From: a virus
Direction: 5' to 3' (one strand)
IMG/VR virus record: IMGVR_UViG_3300030117_006596
Coordinates: 1-51,712 of that record
Length of the DNA: 51,712 nucleotides
The notes under the pieces were generated by a model. The model worked only from the letters and a program-made list of their open reading frames with translations, was not told where the DNA came from and ran no database searches. This document shows positions 4,218 to 50,975 of this stretch, piece by piece. The position numbers and the translations under genes are program-made. Position 1 is the first letter of the stretch. Each line of letters starts with the position of its first letter.

Positions 4218-5134
4218 AACCTAAGTTTTTACTATGTCCCGGCACAGGATACTCTGCCACAACACCTTTATATTACACACTTGCAGTAAATCATAGGTAT
4301 TGTCATGGGGGATTTGATAAAGAATATAATTTACTTGAACTATTATATTTCAAAGAGGTCAACAATCTAAAACTGAGTACCGATCATTTCAAGTACAAAT
4401 TTAGAAGGCATTTTATAGACATACCATTTGATGACGGACAGTATCAAGGGTCTGTTTCTAAAAGGGAAAGACATCCTGATGTTGATTTCAATAATTCATA
4501 TACAAAACTTGATTCGGATTACTATTACAGTCGCCCAATCACTATTGAAAAGTATTTACAATATTATACAGAGCATTATAATAATATAAAAGACATATAT
4601 GAAAGTGTGTGTGACTTCTCGACAAACAATGCTGGGCTACCGGTATGGTTTTTGAAAAAGTATGCACCAATTTTACAGGAACATTTCAATGTCAAAGTAT
4701 TGATTATAAACAGAGACCCTGTAAGAAGACTCTTTAGTGAAATCAACACTAGGTTTCAGAAAGAACCAATGGAGTTCTCATCTGCAAAAGAAATGTTTTT
4801 TCATGTGTTAGAATATCCAACGTCGAGACACTTTGGATTGCACAGAATGTATGAGAACTTCAATGCTCTAACGTACCATAAAGATGTGGTATCAAATTAC
4901 ACTCAAGTATTTTCAGACGTACTAGAGATTTCGATGGAGGGTTTTTGGAAAGGCACTGAAAAAATATCAGACTTTTTGAACTACAAAATTGAACATCTAT
5001 ATAATAACTGCTACTATCCTTTCAAGGGTTCCAACCCACCACATCACAGATACCTAGCAGATCAATGGATGTCTGATAAAGAAGAACTAACGGAGGAGGA
5101 TTATGACAGAGCAAAATTATATTGGCATAGGTAA
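4214..5134 (+). CDS. Sulfotransferase-like P-loop protein
   Basis: A 306-residue protein resembling PAPS-dependent sulfotransferases. The N-terminal C-P-G-T-G-Y-S-A-T-T (8-17) fits the 5'-phosphosulfate-binding loop, and I-N-R-D-P-V-R-R-L-F-S (about 163-173) fits the 3'-phosphate-binding motif. It would move a sulfate group to a hydroxyl or amine of a glycan or lipid. It starts with GTG overlapping the gp33 stop (ATGTGA) and no ATG exists near the N-terminus. It overlaps the next gene by 32 nt. This is the first gene of the modification cassette placed between gp33 and gp59. The specific acceptor cannot be told. Confidence 0.68.
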   Translation: MKPKFLLCPGTGYSATTPLYYTLAVNHRYCHGGFDKEYNLLELLYFKEVNNLKLSTDHFKYKFRRHFIDIPFDDGQYQGSVSKRERHPDVDFNNSYTKLDSDYYYSRPITIEKYLQYYTEHYNNIKDIYESVCDFSTNNAGLPVWFLKKYAPILQEHFNVKVLIINRDPVRRLFSEINTRFQKEPMEFSSAKEMFFHVLEYPTSRHFGLHRMYENFNALTYHKDVVSNYTQVFSDVLEISMEGFWKGTEKISDFLNYKIEHLYNNCYYPFKGSNPPHHRYLADQWMSDKEELTEEDYDRAKLYWHR

Positions 5135-6512
5135 TGCATTGCACGACACAAGCATTGCTGCATTAATAGATGGTGAGTTCAAATATAGAAAGAGTGAACG
5201 TGCATTTGGAATCAAGCACCATAAAGCAGATGATAAGTGGTTCAAGTCTGTGCTTGATGAGTGGGGTGTTGATGAGAAGACTTCAAAGATTGTATATACT
5301 GATGCAGGTAGAAAAAGATTTGGAAGAAGGGTAAGGAAACCATATGACGGTGAAGATTATATTATAGAGGGCGACAGGATATGTCTCGATCATCATACAG
5401 CACATGTGTATTCTGCACAATCATATGCTTCACAGCATGCTGTCTTTGATGGTAGAGGATCAGGTGGTTATGGTGGTAGATGGACAGGTCTGACTATATC
5501 AGCAGACGGTCAGAAGAGATATAAAAATCTATCGATTGGTAAGTACCTATCATATGTTGGATATGCCATGGGATTCAAAGGTATGGAGGTTGATTTTGCA
5601 GGTAAGATCATGGGTCTACAGGCATATGGTACACCGGACATGGAGTTAGCAAGACAGATCAATCAAGATAATATTCTTGATTTATGTGGTGAGTGGATGC
5701 AGAGAGGTATTGATAGTAAAGATCCAAAGTTCCAAGACTTTGTGGCAACTGTACATAAGGCATGTGAATTAATACAATTAGAATATTTCAAGATATTTGA
5801 CCCAAATAAAAAGATTTCTTGCTCTGGTGGTGTGATGTTGAACACAGTCATCAACACAGAACTAAGAAAGACTTATGATTTAGACATACAACCTCACGTA
5901 TATGATGGTGGTCTTAGTATTGGTGCACTTAGGTATGCTGTTGGTCATAACTTTGACATGGGTAAGTTTCCATACTGTCAAGATGATTATGCTCCAGAAG
6001 AAGTAACTGATAAAACTATTGAAGAAACAGCAGAACTTTTAGCACAGGGTAAAATTATTGGGTGGTATCAAGGACATGGTGAGATAGGACCTAGAGCACT
6101 AGGTAACAGAAGTATCCTCATGAACCCGATGATCAAAGATGGTAAAGACATATTGAACTCCCGTGTGAAGAAAAGGGAATGGTGGAGACCCTTTGGAGCA
6201 TCTGTGCTAAAAGAAAAGGCAGCAGAATATTTTGATATTGAGGACTCTCCATACATGTTATACAATGCAAAGGTAAAACAATCTGGACTAGATCCTATCA
6301 CTCATGTGGATGGCACTTGTAGACATCAGACTGTCACTTATGAATCAAATTCTACATACTATAAATTGATCAGTGCCTTTGAGAAAAGAACTGGTTGTCC
6401 AATTCTTCTCAATACATCTTTGAATATAGGAGGTAAACCGATTGCCGGAACCCAAGAGGATGCAGATGTATCAGGTCTTGATGCTTTGATCATAGGGGAT
6501 CGAATTATTTGA
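5103..6512 (+). CDS. Full-length NodU/CmcH-type carbamoyltransferase
   Basis: A 469-residue O-carbamoyltransferase with both domains in the normal order. The N-terminal Kae1-like domain shows H-H-T-A-H (97-101), G-K-I-M-G-L-Q-A-Y-G (167-176), S-G-G-V-M-L-N (241-247) and D-G-G-L-S-I-G-A (268-275). The C-terminal domain shows G-P-R-A-L-G-N-R-S-I-L (329-339), W-R-P-F (361-364) and a late N-T-S-L-N. It should transfer carbamoyl from carbamoyl phosphate, through carbamoyl-AMP, to a hydroxyl group of a sugar or nucleoside. A strong Shine-Dalgarno GGAGGAGGA (5092-5100) inside the upstream gene supports the start. It is the intact counterpart of the split enzyme at 837-2298. Confidence 0.92.
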   Translation: MTEQNYIGIGNALHDTSIAALIDGEFKYRKSERAFGIKHHKADDKWFKSVLDEWGVDEKTSKIVYTDAGRKRFGRRVRKPYDGEDYIIEGDRICLDHHTAHVYSAQSYASQHAVFDGRGSGGYGGRWTGLTISADGQKRYKNLSIGKYLSYVGYAMGFKGMEVDFAGKIMGLQAYGTPDMELARQINQDNILDLCGEWMQRGIDSKDPKFQDFVATVHKACELIQLEYFKIFDPNKKISCSGGVMLNTVINTELRKTYDLDIQPHVYDGGLSIGALRYAVGHNFDMGKFPYCQDDYAPEEVTDKTIEETAELLAQGKIIGWYQGHGEIGPRALGNRSILMNPMIKDGKDILNSRVKKREWWRPFGASVLKEKAAEYFDIEDSPYMLYNAKVKQSGLDPITHVDGTCRHQTVTYESNSTYYKLISAFEKRTGCPILLNTSLNIGGKPIAGTQEDADVSGLDALIIGDRII

Positions 6513-44525: not shown

Positions 44526-45368
44526 TTAGGTTACGTTCCAATCAATTTTTGTACGGATTTGTTCGTTATACTTCCATATCTCCTTGAACATACTACTATC
44601 CAGTTCTACTTCGTCAAACTGAGCGATCAAAGAGTTCAAATCTTTGGGGAAACATGTTCCTCCAAATCCTCTATCGTTATCCACACCCGGAACTTCACTA
44701 TGTGATTCTCCTATTCGTGGGTCTGCAACCACACCTCGTCTTACATCATCATAATCCATTTCGTGTTTCATACAGAAGTCATACATCTTATTGAAGTATG
44801 CAACCTTGTATGCTAGAAAGACATTAGAAAAATATTTCACTGCTTCACTTTCATTACTTGTCATATAATGTGTCTCAGTATTACTAAAATAATAACTATA
44901 GAACATTCCTAACTTACTACTATAATGTTGCCTTGCTCCTATAATTGCTCGTGGTGCATGACGAAAATCCTTCACAGCATTTCTTGCTGTCAGAAACTCA
45001 GGATTATGACACACACTATGACCTAACTCAGCATATTTCTCAGTAGTTCCAACTGGAACTGTTGACTTGATGACATACAGAGGGTCATCATAATCACTAT
45101 TATCCAAGAACTCAAGCGATTGATATGGGTCTAACTTACTAAAAAATTCGTCTAAGTAAGATAAGTCACACGTTCCGTCCATTTTCATTGGAGTGGGCAA
45201 GCATACGAATACAACACTTTGCTTTATTGTTTCTTCAAACGTATTCAAAGATCTCAATGGGTCAACATCATATACCTTTGTTTCTACTTTATCTCTTACA
45301 TTCTGATATATTGCATTTCCTACAAATCCATTACCTACGATACCAACAGTCAATCTATCTGAATACAT
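44526..45368 (-). CDS. Short UDP-glucose/GDP-mannose dehydrogenase-like protein
   Basis: A 280-residue protein with the dehydrogenase Rossmann motif G-N-G-F-V-G (12-17), C-L-P-T-P (about 56-60), S-T-V-P-V-G-T-T, N-P-E-F-L and the catalytic cysteine in G-G-T-C-F-P-K-D (C239). Full-size enzymes are about 400 or more residues; the C-terminal UDP-binding Rossmann domain is missing here. The active-site residues are present, so it may still oxidise a nucleotide sugar to a uronic acid, perhaps as an oligomer or with a partner. It has its own perfect sigma70 promoter. Confidence 0.8.
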   Translation of the reverse strand: MYSDRLTVGIVGNGFVGNAIYQNVRDKVETKVYDVDPLRSLNTFEETIKQSVVFVCLPTPMKMDGTCDLSYLDEFFSKLDPYQSLEFLDNSDYDDPLYVIKSTVPVGTTEKYAELGHSVCHNPEFLTARNAVKDFRHAPRAIIGARQHYSSKLGMFYSYYFSNTETHYMTSNESEAVKYFSNVFLAYKVAYFNKMYDFCMKHEMDYDDVRRGVVADPRIGESHSEVPGVDNDRGFGGTCFPKDLNSLIAQFDEVELDSSMFKEIWKYNEQIRTKIDWNVT

Positions 45369-45391
45369 ATTCTATTTGTAAAGTACATTAT

Positions 45392-45420
45392 ATTATATCA
45401 CATCTATTTGATGTTGTCAA
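45392..45420 (-). promoter_or_regulatory. Consensus sigma70 promoter for the dehydrogenase gene
   Basis: On the minus strand TTGACA (45420-45415), 17-nt spacer, TATAAT (45397-45392): a full consensus match. The -35 box overlaps the 3' end of the HAD gene. It allows the dehydrogenase to be expressed independently of the upstream kdsB-gmhA-HAD genes. Confidence 0.85.
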
Positions 45421-45796
45421 GGAAGTAATCAAAATCACTGCAACCTCTATCGTCCACATAGATAGATGCTCTCGGTTTACCAAAGAACAACTTAGTGTAT
45501 TTCACACCCCATGACTTGAGTTGTTCTTCTGTTCGTGATCTCATGTACCTGTCTGCTTCTGCTTGTTGAGCAATGATGTCAGCAGGGTGCATTTCACTGC
45601 TCACAATAAATCCCCTTGCTGTCTGTAGATATATGATAGCACCTTGATCGAATAGTGCATTGACTTTCTCTATTCTATCATAACGTGGCACAGCATCAAA
45701 GGGAGTTCCTTCGTGTACTTCAGTCAGTGTTCCATCTATATCAAAACAATAGATGTCAGACCTAGAGTCAGTTGGATCATCAAAAGTTTCATTCAT
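45404..45796 (-). CDS. HAD-superfamily phosphatase-like protein
   Basis: A 130-residue HAD protein with the catalytic D19-x-D21-G-T motif, Y-L-Q-T-A-R-G (motif II Thr) and a late K-P-R-A-S-I-Y-V-D-D-R (Lys plus acidic motif). Small single-domain HADs of this kind remove phosphate from sugar phosphates; with the GmhA-like neighbour it could act like GmhB, or like KdsC with the KdsB-like neighbour. It overlaps the SIS gene by 8 nt. The exact substrate is not visible. Confidence 0.8.
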   Translation of the reverse strand: MNETFDDPTDSRSDIYCFDIDGTLTEVHEGTPFDAVPRYDRIEKVNALFDQGAIIYLQTARGFIVSSEMHPADIIAQQAEADRYMRSRTEEQLKSWGVKYTKLFFGKPRASIYVDDRGCSDFDYFLDNIK

Positions 45797-46265
45797 GTTC
45801 GATTTTAGGTAGAGTTATACCATTATACTCCATAAGCATATAAAGAGTCCAAAGAGCATTTACTTCAAACTCGTGATATGTTTCTACAGGAATCACAATG
45901 GTGTCTAAATGTTCGTGTAATATAGGACGTGACACTATCGCTAGTGTTGGCATTGAAGAAGATATTTTTTTCATTGCTTCAATGAGTGGCGAGTTCGTCC
46001 TACACCCCACTGCAATAATCAGGTCAGCATATTGACAGGCATATTTTATAAATGCTTCTTTCCAATCTCCATCACGACCTAGTGCAGTCATGTGAACTGA
46101 ATCAGGAGCAAAACAAAATTTACCTGTATGTCTTTGTATGTCACTTGCCATGTGTTGACACACAGCAAGATTACCACCATTACCAACGAGGGCAACTTTA
46201 TTTGCTTGACGTAACAACCAAGCACCACGTTCGATCTCAGGACTTTTTACATACAATCTTTTCAT
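45789..46265 (-). CDS. SIS-domain sugar isomerase (GmhA-like)
   Basis: A 158-residue SIS protein with V-G-N-G-G-N-L-A-V-C-Q-H (27-38), the GmhA sugar-phosphate-binding signature, and A-V-G-C-R-T-N-S-P (second loop, around 105). GmhA turns sedoheptulose 7-phosphate into heptose phosphate for LPS core or S-layer heptose. It is slightly shorter than GmhA (about 190 residues). It overlaps the HAD and KdsB-like genes by a few bases, so the three are one operon. Confidence 0.78.
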   Translation of the reverse strand: MKRLYVKSPEIERGAWLLRQANKVALVGNGGNLAVCQHMASDIQRHTGKFCFAPDSVHMTALGRDGDWKEAFIKYACQYADLIIAVGCRTNSPLIEAMKKISSSMPTLAIVSRPILHEHLDTIVIPVETYHEFEVNALWTLYMLMEYNGITLPKIEHE

Positions 46266-46963
46266 AGTAATTTTTCGACTTCATCTATATGTTCTGGTCG
46301 ATCTATTGCTCTAAATTTAGCACAATTCAAGTTGTATGGCATCACATTATATTTACCTATGAACCCCTGAGTATCCAGTCCTTGCCATTGATTTATAAAT
46401 GTCATATCTAAATTAGGAAAGTCATTGATGACACTTCGTTTATATAGATATAATCCTATGATTGATTTTATATTTTCGTTTACTACTTCTATATCTCTCA
46501 TACAATGAGTCACAACACCATTATTGATTACACATTTGACTACATCTTGATCTTTTATTTCACTTTCATCTAAATCTCTTATTGCTTGCACCATGTCACA
46601 CCTATATGTGACCCCGAAACGAATTATATCGTCTATCCAGTCGGATTGAATTAGCGGTTCGTCTCCCTGCAAATTAAGAATGAAATCACTTTCCACATTT
46701 TGAGATACTTCTGCAACTCTATGAGTGCAAGTGTAGTGTTTTCTTGTAAGTCTGGATTCATAACCCTCCTTTTTGCAAAGATCAACAATTTCGTTATCTT
46801 CAGTAGCAACGATAACATTGTCAATATATTTAGACTTTCGTCCAATATCAGCAACCCTAAGAACCATTGCCCTGTCATTGATAAGGGCAAGAGGTTTTCG
46901 TGGAAACCTAGATGACGACAGTCTAGCAGGGATTACACATGTAATCTTCTGACCTAGATACAT
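46262..46963 (-). CDS. KdsB-like CMP-Kdo (acylneuraminate-type) cytidylyltransferase
   Basis: A 233-residue nucleotidyltransferase with V-I-P-A-R-L-S-S-S-R-F-P-x-K-P-L (10-25), V-A-T-E-D-N-E-I, T-C-T-H-R-V-A-E and N-L-Q-G-D-E-P-L, as in KdsB. KdsB activates Kdo with CTP to CMP-Kdo for sugar transfer. The R-L-S-S-S-R-F-P variant is the KdsB type rather than NeuA. I start at ATG 46963; the 47002 ATG adds 13 residues beyond the family start. First gene of the minus-strand sugar cassette, divergent from the 47045 gene. Confidence 0.85.
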   Translation of the reverse strand: MYLGQKITCVIPARLSSSRFPRKPLALINDRAMVLRVADIGRKSKYIDNVIVATEDNEIVDLCKKEGYESRLTRKHYTCTHRVAEVSQNVESDFILNLQGDEPLIQSDWIDDIIRFGVTYRCDMVQAIRDLDESEIKDQDVVKCVINNGVVTHCMRDIEVVNENIKSIIGLYLYKRSVINDFPNLDMTFINQWQGLDTQGFIGKYNVMPYNLNCAKFRAIDRPEHIDEVEKLL

Positions 46964-46995
46964 AATTTTTCTCGTGTATAGATATGATAACAGTA

Positions 46996-47013
46996 GTTGC
47001 AAATAATTGCAAC
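46996..47013. repeat. Palindrome between divergent early genes
   Basis: GTTGCAA-ATAA-TTGCAAC, a perfect 7-bp inverted repeat with a 4-nt centre. It lies about 30 nt from both gene starts (46963 minus, 47045 plus) and overlaps weak promoter-like boxes on both strands, so it might be an operator or a stem-loop in the leader. Confidence 0.5.
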
Positions 47014-47505: not shown

Positions 47506-49761
47506 ATGACAGTATCAATCGAAATCAAAGGTAATCTTGCTAAACTACTAGCAACTGAAGACCTTATCATTGAGCATAAACCAGTCGAGACAGCATCATT
47601 TGATGTTGATAGAAGAGTCCTTGTACTACCTGTATGGGATAGAGCAAGTGAGACTGTTTACGATATGCTAGTGGCACATGAAGTGGGTCACGCTCTATTC
47701 ACACCTAATAGAGATTGGTGGAAAGAAGATGAGTTCAAAACAGTACCACATGATTATGTCAATGTGGTAGAAGATGCTCGCATTGAAAGACAAATCAAGC
47801 AAAGATATAGAGGTCTCAACAGAGATTTCAACAAAGGATATTCTGAGTTACATAATGATGATCTATTTGAATTAGAGAATACAAATGTAAATCATTTGAA
47901 ACCTATTGATAGAATCAATCTATACTTCAAGATCGGTAGTTTCATTGACATTGAGTTCAATGATACTGAGAATGAGTTTGTGACCAGAATTTCTAGATGT
48001 GAGACATTTGACGAGGTACTACAAATATCTAAAGAGATACACGAGTACACTAAAGAAATGCAAGAGCAAATGCAGAAGCAAGCAAATGCCGAGCAAAAAG
48101 AGTCCGAAGCACAAGATAATGCCAAAGTCGAGGTCAGACCTGACATGTCAGAGTCTAATGATAACACTCAGGCACAAAAAGATGAGCAAGAAACTGATAC
48201 TCAGGGTCAGGAAGATCAAGAGGACGAATCAGTACAAGGTAGAACAGACAAACAATATCCTGATGAAGTAGAGGATACTCAAGAGGAAGAAACAGAGTCA
48301 GAGACAGAAGGTTCTGGCACTATGGGTTCTGAATTCGGAGACATCAATACTGCTACAACTCAGAGATCACTTGATGAGAGTATAGAGGATTTGACTAACA
48401 TTCATAAAGATCAAATACCTACACAATATGTTACTATACCTAACATGAAAATGGATAAGGTTGTTATTGATTTTGATACTATCAAATCATATCTTGATAA
48501 TCATTTTACTGAGAACAATACTACTGACTCAACAAATCAGTTCATCATTGACCACACTCAAAGATTCAATGAGTTCAAGAAATCAAGTAACAAAGAAGTC
48601 AACTATCTTGTCAAAGAGTTTGAAATGAAAAAGTCAGCAGACTCATACGCTAGACAGAGAACAGCAAAGACTGGTATGCTTGACACATCTAAGTTACACA
48701 CATACATGTACAATGAAGATGTATTCAAGAAAGTAACAACAATAACTGATGGAAAGAATCATGGTCTTATATTTGTTCTGGACTGGTCAGGTTCAATGAA
48801 CAACATACTTGAAGATACTCTCAAGCAATTATTTCAATTAGTCTGGTTCTGCAAAAAGGTTCAAATCCCTTATGAGGTGTACGCTTTCACAAATGATTCA
48901 TGGGGTTTAGGTGTTGAAGATGATGCTGAAAAACCATACACATCATACAGAAATACATCAAGCGAACTACTGGTTGATACTTGGAAAGAGGGAGACATCA
49001 ATATTGATGGGTGTTTCCGTATGGTAAACATATTATCATCTAAGGCAAGAACCAAAGATATTGAGAAGCAAATGATAAACTTATGGTTGACAAACTGTAG
49101 TTTCAAGTATCACTACAATCATTGTTTCTCACACCCTGCAAAGTTTCATCTATCAGGTACACCATTGAATGAAGCGATCATTGCCACTAAGCAATTAGTC
49201 AAGCAAATGATGAAGAAAATTCAAAAAGTACACGTTGTTATCCTGACTGATGGGGAAGCACACCAACCTAGTTACAATGTGGATAGATCAAAGTTACATG
49301 ATGGTTGGGGTGTTGACCATAAGGGAACAAGATCAGTTGGTTCAACATGTATGTTGAGAAATCGTAAGTCAGGTAAGACTTATGGATTGACCTATAGTAA
49401 TTGTTCATTGAAACTCATTGAGTCTATCAAGGACGATCTACCTAACGTCTCATACATTGCTTTTAGAGTGGTTGAGAGGGGTGGTATGAGATATGTGTGG
49501 TCTCAGTATGGTATGGAAACATATCCAGACTATGAGCAAATGAAAGAGCAAGTCAAGAAAGGCAATCTCTCACTCACATTGAATTCATTTGATAAATTCT
49601 TTATGATTCCCCAACAACATCTAAGTGTGGACTCAGATCAACTAGAACAAGTTGAAGAGGGTGCAACTAAAAGAGAAGTCTCAATGGCATTTCGTAAGAT
49701 GTTCAAGAACAAAAAGACTAACAAGTTTATGCTCTCAGAATTTGCAAAAGTCATTGCATAA
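47506..49761 (+). CDS. cobT: CobT-like VWA protein with metallopeptidase motif
   Basis: A 751-residue protein. The N-terminal region has H58-E-V-G-H62, a zincin-like metal site, followed by N-V-V-E-D-A-R-I-E (about 86-94) that could give a further ligand. A very acidic Gln/Glu/Asp-rich linker (about 180-285) leads to a VWA domain with MIDAS D-W-S-G-S-M (426-431) and T-D-G (near 579). CobT-type proteins pair with CobS-type AAA+ ATPases in cobaltochelatase or related MoxR/VWA chaperone systems; the partner gene follows. The HEVGH motif raises the chance of a protease-like or metal-handling function instead of cobalt insertion. Confidence 0.78.
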   Translation: MTVSIEIKGNLAKLLATEDLIIEHKPVETASFDVDRRVLVLPVWDRASETVYDMLVAHEVGHALFTPNRDWWKEDEFKTVPHDYVNVVEDARIERQIKQRYRGLNRDFNKGYSELHNDDLFELENTNVNHLKPIDRINLYFKIGSFIDIEFNDTENEFVTRISRCETFDEVLQISKEIHEYTKEMQEQMQKQANAEQKESEAQDNAKVEVRPDMSESNDNTQAQKDEQETDTQGQEDQEDESVQGRTDKQYPDEVEDTQEEETESETEGSGTMGSEFGDINTATTQRSLDESIEDLTNIHKDQIPTQYVTIPNMKMDKVVIDFDTIKSYLDNHFTENNTTDSTNQFIIDHTQRFNEFKKSSNKEVNYLVKEFEMKKSADSYARQRTAKTGMLDTSKLHTYMYNEDVFKKVTTITDGKNHGLIFVLDWSGSMNNILEDTLKQLFQLVWFCKKVQIPYEVYAFTNDSWGLGVEDDAEKPYTSYRNTSSELLVDTWKEGDINIDGCFRMVNILSSKARTKDIEKQMINLWLTNCSFKYHYNHCFSHPAKFHLSGTPLNEAIIATKQLVKQMMKKIQKVHVVILTDGEAHQPSYNVDRSKLHDGWGVDHKGTRSVGSTCMLRNRKSGKTYGLTYSNCSLKLIESIKDDLPNVSYIAFRVVERGGMRYVWSQYGMETYPDYEQMKEQVKKGNLSLTLNSFDKFFMIPQQHLSVDSDQLEQVEEGATKREVSMAFRKMFKNKKTNKFMLSEFAKVIA

Positions 49762-49771
49762 ACCAATCATC

Positions 49772-49804
49772 AAAGTGGCACATTGCATATTGCATTGCCA
49801 CTTT
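49772..49804 (+). terminator. Hairpin between the cobT- and cobS-like genes
   Basis: A 9-bp perfect stem (AAAGTGGCA 49772-49780, TGCCACTTT 49796-49804) with a 15-nt loop. No long T tract follows, so it may be a partial terminator, an attenuator or a processing/stability stem adjusting the ratio of the two proteins. Confidence 0.55.
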
Positions 49805-49844
49805 CCAACCATTACAATTAGTACATAAGCAATCAATCAAGATT

Positions 49845-50975
49845 ATGCCAAGAACAATCAACTTTGAACCACACTTTGATGCAATCACTTCTAAGTATGG
49901 TAAAGAACTAGATGCTGATATGGTCAAGGAGTATGTTGCAAACAACCCTGACGTATCCTATCAGACTGTCACTAAGTATCTAAACAAGTGGAAAATATCT
50001 AGAGGTAAGTGGAACATCAAAACACCACAACAAGAAACTCAGATACCAACTGCTACATTTCAAGTACAGCAACCACAATCAACTAAACTCACAAAGACTG
50101 AGAAAGTTGAACAAAATCTTATCCCTGCAAAGGATAACACATTCATTCCTTTTGGCAATTTCCCTTCACTCAAGAAAGTTATTGCATCAAGAGAATTCTA
50201 TCCAACATTCATTACTGGTATGAGTGGCAATGGTAAGACATTCGGTGTTGAGCAAGCATGCTCTCAGTTGAATAGAGAACTTATCAGGGTCAACATTACA
50301 GTCGAGACTGACGAGGACGATTTGATCGGTGGTTTCAGACTTGTCAATGGTCAAACAGTATGGCACAATGGTGCTGTTGTTGAAGCACTAGAGCGTGGTG
50401 CTATCTTATTACTTGATGAGATTGATCTAGCATCAAACAAGATACTATGCTTACAACCCATACTAGAGGGCAAAGGTCTGTTTCTCAAAAAGATTGGCGA
50501 GTACATCAAACCTGCAAAGGGATTCAATGTCATTGCTACTGCTAACACAAAGGGCAAGGGTTCTGATGATGGTCGTTTCATAGGTACTAACATACTCAAT
50601 GAAGCGTTCCTTGAGAGATTCCCTATCACATTTGAGCAAGAGTATCCTACAGTAGTGACTGAGAAAAAGATACTTACCAGACTATGTGAAGAGATCGGGA
50701 TACCTCTTACTGGCGATCACAAAGGGTTCATAGACTACCTATGTGACTGGAGTGACATAGTAAGACGTACATTCAAAGATGGTGGTGTTGATGAGATCAT
50801 ATCCACTCGAAGACTCGTACACATCATGAGAGCATATCAAATCTTTGGCGATAAAGTCAAAGCAATGCAAATGTGTCTCAACAGATTTGATGATGAGACC
50901 AAAGAGTCATTCATGCAACTCTATACTAAACTAGACGAGCATATCACACCAGAAGAGAATGTTACGGAGTCGTAA
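49845..50975 (+). CDS. cobS: CobS-like MoxR-family AAA+ ATPase
   Basis: A 376-residue ATPase. A helical N-terminal domain (Y-G-K-E-L-D-A-D-M-V, N-K-W-K-I-S-R-G-K-W) and a polar linker precede the AAA+ core: Walker A G-M-S-G-N-G-K-T (125-132), E-D-D-L-I-G-G (157-163), Walker B L-L-L-D-E-I-D (188-194), an A-T-A-N-T sensor-1 region and F-L-E-R-F arginine-finger region. It resembles CobS, a core gene of T4-like cyanophages annotated in cobalamin synthesis. A function with the CobT-like protein upstream is likely. Confidence 0.88.
   Translation: MPRTINFEPHFDAITSKYGKELDADMVKEYVANNPDVSYQTVTKYLNKWKISRGKWNIKTPQQETQIPTATFQVQQPQSTKLTKTEKVEQNLIPAKDNTFIPFGNFPSLKKVIASREFYPTFITGMSGNGKTFGVEQACSQLNRELIRVNITVETDEDDLIGGFRLVNGQTVWHNGAVVEALERGAILLLDEIDLASNKILCLQPILEGKGLFLKKIGEYIKPAKGFNVIATANTKGKGSDDGRFIGTNILNEAFLERFPITFEQEYPTVVTEKKILTRLCEEIGIPLTGDHKGFIDYLCDWSDIVRRTFKDGGVDEIISTRRLVHIMRAYQIFGDKVKAMQMCLNRFDDETKESFMQLYTKLDEHITPEENVTES

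Follow-up and report, generated by a model that had tools for sequence, protein, structure and literature searches.

A phage MoxR-type ATPase and its vWA partner with a zincin-like N-terminal domain: a probable remodelling machine rather than a cobaltochelatase

The window analysed here is the 51,712-base virus record IMGVR_UViG_3300030117_006596; positions are given on this whole stretch, and the gene pair under study, at its right end, lies on the + strand. The pair most plausibly comprises a MoxR-family AAA+ ATPase and a vWA partner whose N-terminal domain resembles a minigluzincin-like zinc peptidase, which together would act as an ATP-driven remodelling machine. From sequence, structural model and analogy, the probability of this reading is put at about 0.6. 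It is very probable that the pair is a remodelling machine of the MoxR/vWA kind instead of a cobaltochelatase. The same preference, for such a machine over a plain cobaltochelatase, had been voiced in a preliminary description of this DNA, and it is backed by the motifs, the zincin-like model, the vWA fold neighbours, the phylogeny and the scarcity of CobN.

The vWA gene is already called “peptidase” in most GenBank records and in PHROG 459. For jumbo phages, Iyer et al. (2021, PMC7824862, section 3.4.5) described a MoxR-vWA pair bearing a metallopeptidase domain at the N-terminus and suggested that it serves in virion assembly and processing. Liu et al. (2021, PMC8651126) took the opposite view, reading the genes as cobST “mistakenly annotated as a peptidase”. 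As these two studies disagree, the question of function was open.

The gene pair and its family

The two open reading frames (ORFs) are separated by 83 bases (Table 1). The preliminary description had listed, besides the ORF pair itself, HEVGH, a later EDARIE, an acidic linker, a vWA domain and a MoxR/CobS-type ATPase, and all of these are indeed present. The match of the larger protein to PHROG 459 spans the full profile (E 5e-238, residues 3-751 onto positions 2-736 of 736), and PHROG 249, the family of the ATPase, carries the label “porphyrin biosynthesis”. Relatives in phage records number 463 for the larger protein and 527 for the ATPase, mostly from cyanomyoviruses and including three pelagiphage records. 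A scan of genome contigs yielded seven loci, all of which look like phage contigs binned in metagenome-assembled genomes or cells, so that there are no clear close relatives in cells. Staphylococcus and Listeria phages, which encode a CobS-like ATPase with no vWA/HExxH neighbour among the ORFs checked, were left uncounted. The window protein is thus one further member of an already known family.

Table 1. Coordinates of the gene pair, its domains and its motifs in the window
Feature	Residues	Position	Strand	Details
Metallopeptidase-like/vWA protein, 751 amino acids		47506..49761	+	PHROG 459 “peptidase”; architecture CobT-like
Zincin-like N-terminal domain	1-200	47506..48105	+	AlphaFold2 predicted local distance difference test (pLDDT) 88; nearest structures in Foldseek/VIA are almost all zincins
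HEVGH	58-62	47677..47691	+	predicted zinc ligands H58, H62; predicted general base E59; inside helix 49-65
EDARIE	89-94	47770..47787	+	candidate third ligand E89, D90 or E94; helix 82-100
Acidic linker, predicted disordered	203-283	48112..48354	+	27 D/E versus 5 K/R
vWA domain	416-751	48751..49758	+	metal ion-dependent adhesion site (MIDAS) D426-x-S428-x-S430, T552, D582
MoxR/CobS-type AAA+ ATPase, 376 amino acids		49845..50975	+	PHROG 249 E 7.7e-127; AAA_5 E 1.8e-19
ATPase Walker A, GMSGNGKT	125-132	50217-50240	+	
ATPase Walker B, ILLLDEID	187-194	50403-50426	+	

Conserved motifs and predicted fold

Shuffling shows that HExxH arises by chance in a protein of such composition at about 5%; the motif in a single protein therefore means little, and it is conservation that carries weight. 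HEV[GAS]H together with ED[AVS]R[IV]E occurs in 87/87 full-length viral relatives, which were fetched with sequence patterns taken from outside the motifs. Across the alignment of 74 N-terminal domains, H58, E59, H62, E89, D90 and R92 are invariant, and position 94 is E or D throughout.

The same motif pair recurs in distant members, as HEVAH..EDVFIE in E. coli phage PhiR41_1, HECYH..VDHNIE in ICP2, HESAH..EDVRID in Ochrobactrum phage OC, HEVAH..EDTMIE in a Rhizobium phage and HEAAH..EDCRIE in IncC plasmids and a region resembling an integrative conjugative element (ICE). It is found also in Salmonella phage SSU5 and in Gordonia/Tsukamurella phages; the member from roseophage CRP-810 has HEAGH, and in haloarchaeal virus HHTV-2 the motifs (HEVQH..EDNHID) are carried by an ORF separate from the vWA. 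Profile comparison points to the same stretch, since the match of the window protein to PHROG 1576 covers residues 57-110 alone, i.e., the motifs, and in the reverse comparison PhiR41_1 matches PHROG 459 at 72-128.

AlphaFold2 was supplied with 69 sequences for the whole protein and 74 for the N-terminal domain alone. The whole-protein model has a pLDDT of 77, with values below 50 at residues 203-275, and the model of the N-terminal domain consists of three strands, the HEVGH helix, the EDARIE helix and more helices after them. The top Foldseek matches in the PDB are minigluzincins (abylysin, selecase, jannalysin), ArdC and PprI, with E-values of 0.05-0.3 and probabilities up to 0.99. VIA gives Z-scores of 6.1 for abylysin, about 6 for BlaR1, jannalysin and selecase, 5.8 for ArdC, 5.4 for IrrE and 4.3 for Wss1, and 19 of its first 20 rows are zincins, as classed by their titles or from established knowledge. 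In a comparison with predicted viral structures, phage CobT/VWFA proteins (one of them haloarchaeal) come first, followed by phage metallopeptidases of SprT, IrrE and PolyVal type. The Pfam family PhageMetallopep matches residues 42-91 below threshold (E 0.014), and the domain profile gave no meaningful match to PDB sequences. The structure prediction called for in the preliminary description thus came out in favour of a zincin, at moderate scores: the motif lies on what would be the active-site helix, and the N-terminal domain can be called a zincin with moderate certainty. The predicted zincin of the window protein is probably catalytically competent.

The vWA domain, the ATPase and a possible mechanism

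The MIDAS is intact, with DWSGSM at residues 426-431 followed by T552 and D582, and an AAA+ protein with both Walker motifs beside a MIDAS-bearing vWA protein is what defines a MoxR/vWA pair. In VIA, the vWA fold lies nearest to the MIDAS domain of midasin (8ql1, Z 16.2) and to the vWA of NorD bound to NorQ (9qh6, Z 15.5). Cryo-electron microscopy of NorQD showed the pore of the AAA+ ring occupied by a vWA finger, the N-domain docked on that ring and the linker stretched during vWA rotation (PMC13036017); a twisting mechanism and a role of the N-domain have been discussed (PMC13036017, PMC9976466). The phage pair is built from the same components, namely an AAA+ ATPase, a MIDAS-bearing vWA domain, a long linker and an N-terminal domain.

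By analogy with NorQ/NorD, a hexamer of the ATPase would hold on to the vWA protein, the target would be bound through the MIDAS and the N-terminal domain, and ATP would drive its twisting or pulling. Where HExxH is intact, the N-terminal domain might also cut the target. The likeliest targets would be phage or host replication and recombination proteins, such as complexes that have stalled or are bound to DNA. Architecture, intact motifs, their conservation, the zincin-like fold, separation from the CobT clade and the usual neighbourhood of the family are read from sequence, model or phylogeny; that the two proteins form a complex, bind zinc and cut proteins, and what their target is, are what we infer here.

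Gene neighbourhood and putative target

The order typical of cyanophages, also present in Ochrobactrum phage OC, is uvsW-gp55-gp47-gp46-[peptidase]-[cobS]-gp45-gp44-gp62-regA. At 87 cyanophage-type loci, gp46 was found in 61, a median of 192 bases upstream of the pair, and gp45 in 50, 2.2 kb downstream, and structural markers follow the pair in 1/53 loci of this type. In SSU5, PhiR41_1, nickie, the Rhizobium phage and BUCTxx99 the pair shortly precedes DNA polymerase III, several of these phages having a ligase, primase or helicase upstream; in ICP2 primase, helicase and polymerase come after it. IncC plasmids have the order AAA-x-ssb-bet-exo-DUF3150-vWA, and relatives of the vWA protein are contained in 1433 plasmid records. 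At the IncC locus L154 (4801-12794), the AAA+ and HEAAH-vWA genes flank the ssb-bet-exo-DUF3150 block. Since relatives usually reside in replication and recombination modules, a target in DNA metabolism is suggested, and its placement in DNA replication or recombination, for which synteny is the evidence, is offered tentatively, at slightly less than even odds.

Evidence against and alternative readings

Several observations weigh against the proposed peptidase-bearing machine and its replication target. Fold scores are moderate, with a best Foldseek E-value of 0.05 and a best VIA Z-score of 6.1, where 8 would be clear. The third zinc ligand has candidates only (E89/D90/E94), and ICP2 has V at the position of E89. 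The window's own copy of the pair does not stand beside replication genes (gp44-gp47 markers were looked for in the window and none was found), sugar-nucleotide genes lying upstream instead, and in a near relative, locus L002, a DNA methyltransferase is found downstream of the pair. Synteny may mirror when the genes are expressed and not what they do, and the phages with DNA polymerase III may be a single lineage rather than several. Finally, nickie (Pseudomonas) and BUCTxx99 (Stenotrophomonas) lack HExxH although both pair and synteny are kept. Because the site could be lost there, cleavage may be an extra and not the core function, and peptidase activity may be dispensable. The HExxH-less members (nickie, L151:6974-9058; BUCTxx99, L155:6992-8977) still precede DNA polymerase III, and these two phages are natural test cases for a function independent of the peptidase.

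Such losses also fit a remodelling or metal-loading chaperone like NorQ/NorD that cuts nothing and uses the zincin domain as a target-binding arm only. The closest vWA relatives, midasin and NorD, and the reduction of the motif to remnants in the N-domains of NorD and CobT point the same way; however, the strict invariance of H58, E59 and H62 in the cyanophage-type set is difficult to account for unless the domain binds metal or is catalytic, and this reading is considered unlikely. An assembly role, with the pair as a chaperone-protease that would fold and cut structural proteins, draws on the jumbo phages described with the same architecture, on a MoxR-vWA pair cited as required for tail assembly in the two-tailed Acidianus virus (both Iyer et al. 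2021, PMC7824862) and on the tail fibre genes upstream in the window. It too has a low probability, as most cyanophage-type loci place the pair between gp46 and gp45, outside the structural module, and relatives reside on conjugative plasmids, elements that form no virions.

An anti-defence or host-takeover protease, destroying a host restriction or repair complex in the manner of ArdC or of SprT-type phage peptidases, would agree with the rank of ArdC among the best fold neighbours and with the broad range of mobile elements concerned. It is nevertheless quite improbable: cobS belongs to the core genes of cyanomyoviruses (PMC3037559), the pair occupies a fixed replication cassette and not variable regions, and PADLOC gave no match.

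The cobaltochelatase question

The preferred reading, a MoxR/vWA machine with a peptidase-like domain, has finally to be set against the metabolic one. The ATPase is a distant homolog of CobS, matching TIGR01650 with 61.7 bits (E 6.4e-17) against a cut-off of 558.55 bits, and CobS in the PDB (9ujv) with E 3.5e-17. The window protein has no match to CobT TIGR01651, PF06213 or PF11775 in the Pfam and NCBIfam search. “CobT-like”, the term first applied to it, therefore holds only in the sense of distant homology. The homology is traced through intermediate phage proteins, which match Pfam CobT and CobT_C strongly (9e-27 and 8e-82) while keeping HEVAH..EDVFIE; the N-domains of the phage proteins and of CobT are thus homologous, chelatase CobT being without the site. 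A direct comparison of the phage profile with true CobT by hhalign was discarded as a link, as it aligned part of the vWA alone with a probability of 2, so that the homology rests on the intermediates. The listed fold matches of the N-domain do not include the solved CobT structures (9uka, 21vu), but this does not show that the folds differ.

HExxH is absent at all 18 parseable true CobT loci; G-x-x-D-S-x-A-L stands at its place, and EQARVE at that of the second motif. A tree of 31 proteins, which has long branches, unites the chelatase CobTs in a single clade lacking HExxH (94/94), separate from the T4-type clade (100/100), and the HExxH label needs five changes. With the caution that long branches demand, this spread fits an ancestral site and several losses. 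The N-domains of MoxR-linked vWA proteins in general may have a single origin, judging by a motif remnant in a NorD-like protein, against the published view of their non-conservation.

The search for a CobN partner, advised at the outset, gave a mixed answer: the window virus fragment has none, and of 50,697 phage records two have CobN, in neither of which the pair was seen, but CobN is encoded in a Prochlorococcus genome, which makes hijacking of host CobN possible in that host. Pseudomonas phage Y13 (OQ572414.1, 16457-20017) has a full-length CobN-like gene, the sole one covering most of the query; the phage may truly have acquired it, or it may be a contaminant.

Hosts and carriers bear on the question as well. 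Relatives of the pair occur in phages of E. coli (K-12 included) and on IncC plasmids in E. coli. To our knowledge, E. coli builds no corrin ring. The pair is known from pelagiphages (PMC7029224), Mosig being one carrier, and their host SAR11 is a B12 auxotroph (PMC9296465). Pelagimyophages moreover encode a complete two-subunit ribonucleotide reductase (PMC7029224), taken here as the B12-independent class. With CobT distant and devoid of HExxH, no pair-bearing phage record found with CobN and B12-auxotrophic SAR11 among the hosts, a cobaltochelatase role of the phage pair appears unlikely. Accordingly, the proposal by Liu et al. (2021, PMC8651126) that phage CobST joins host CobN and increases B12 production in support of nucleotide metabolism is retained with very low probability, and the B12 label of the phage pair is probably wrong.

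Other genes in the window and in a related locus

Elsewhere, the window has genes for thymidylate synthase, a single-strand binding protein, and baseplate and tail fibre proteins of T4 type. The pair is immediately preceded, on the opposite (−) strand, by a sugar cluster (44526-47002) of UDP-glucose dehydrogenase, HAD phosphatase-like, SIS-like and CMP-sugar-type cytidylyltransferase genes. By their sequences, these four genes look like phage-encoded glycan modification. Two Nol-like carbamoyltransferase ORFs (1459-2298 and 5103-6512) are followed by radical SAM, epimerase and aminotransferase genes. At L002 (11965-13298), a 182-amino-acid protein (PHROG 6927) stands just ahead of the methyltransferase downstream of the pair; the two are possibly a restriction-modification or DNA-modification unit.

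Significance and comparison with known systems

The peptidase or machine view, initially regarded as new, is not, given the metallopeptidase-vWA/MoxR pair already described (PMC7824862) and the widespread “peptidase” label. What is new here is the direct test between the peptidase and cobST readings, with the site missing in chelatase CobT, as well as the finding of the motif in IncC/ICE elements and a haloarchaeal virus, and the replication/recombination neighbourhood. Ocean virus studies use phage cobS as a community marker and list it among the genes of B12 synthesis, its function being admitted as unknown (PMC9983427). If the pair is a remodelling protease of the replication module, the B12-metabolic reading of cobS should go, and a core function that the phages share with multidrug-resistance plasmids could be tested in E. 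coli laboratory systems. A wider generalization, doubtful at present, would make the pair part of a replication/recombination-associated AAA+/vWA-zincin class of T4-like phages, phages and phage-plasmids bearing DNA polymerase III, haloarchaeal viruses and IncC/ICE elements, extracting and cutting DNA-stuck proteins as a mobile counterpart of SPRTN/Wss1 plus segregase, with chelatase CobT as a descendant without the active site.

Among the closest known systems, the cyanophage “peptidase”/cobS pair (PHROG 459/PHROG 249) shares with the window pair the full-length match, gene order and motifs, but it mostly sits in the gp46-gp45 cassette, whereas the pair of the window's subclade does not. Minigluzincins (abylysin, selecase), ArdC, IrrE/PprI and Wss1 resemble the N-terminal domain model in having an HExxH helix and then an acidic helix; the similarity is moderate and, unlike the phage protein, they have no vWA or MoxR partner. 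Midasin (Rea1/MDN1), which strips ribosome assembly factors, has the vWA fold nearest to that of the phage protein, and its AAA+ domains match the phage ATPase by sequence; it differs in being a single giant chain without a peptidase domain.

NorQ/NorD likewise combines an AAA+ protein with a vWA partner that has an N-domain and a long linker, and the vWA folds are alike, whereas the NorD-like protein examined is without HExxH and NorQD inserts iron into nitric oxide reductase. That NorD-like protein (L149:2547-4775, −) retains “MAAHALW...EDARVE”, a remnant of the same motif. Cobaltochelatase CobS/CobT, remotely homologous, shares the MoxR AAA+ ATPase and the layout of N-domain, acidic linker and vWA, but in CobT G-x-x-D-S replaces HExxH, the protein forms its own clade, and the CobN partner is nearly missing from phages. 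The jumbo-phage pair (ASV44728), as described in PMC7824862, has in common with the window pair the N-terminal metallopeptidase-vWA fusion and an adjoining MoxR ATPase; virion assembly was proposed there, whereas the neighbourhoods presented here favour replication and recombination.

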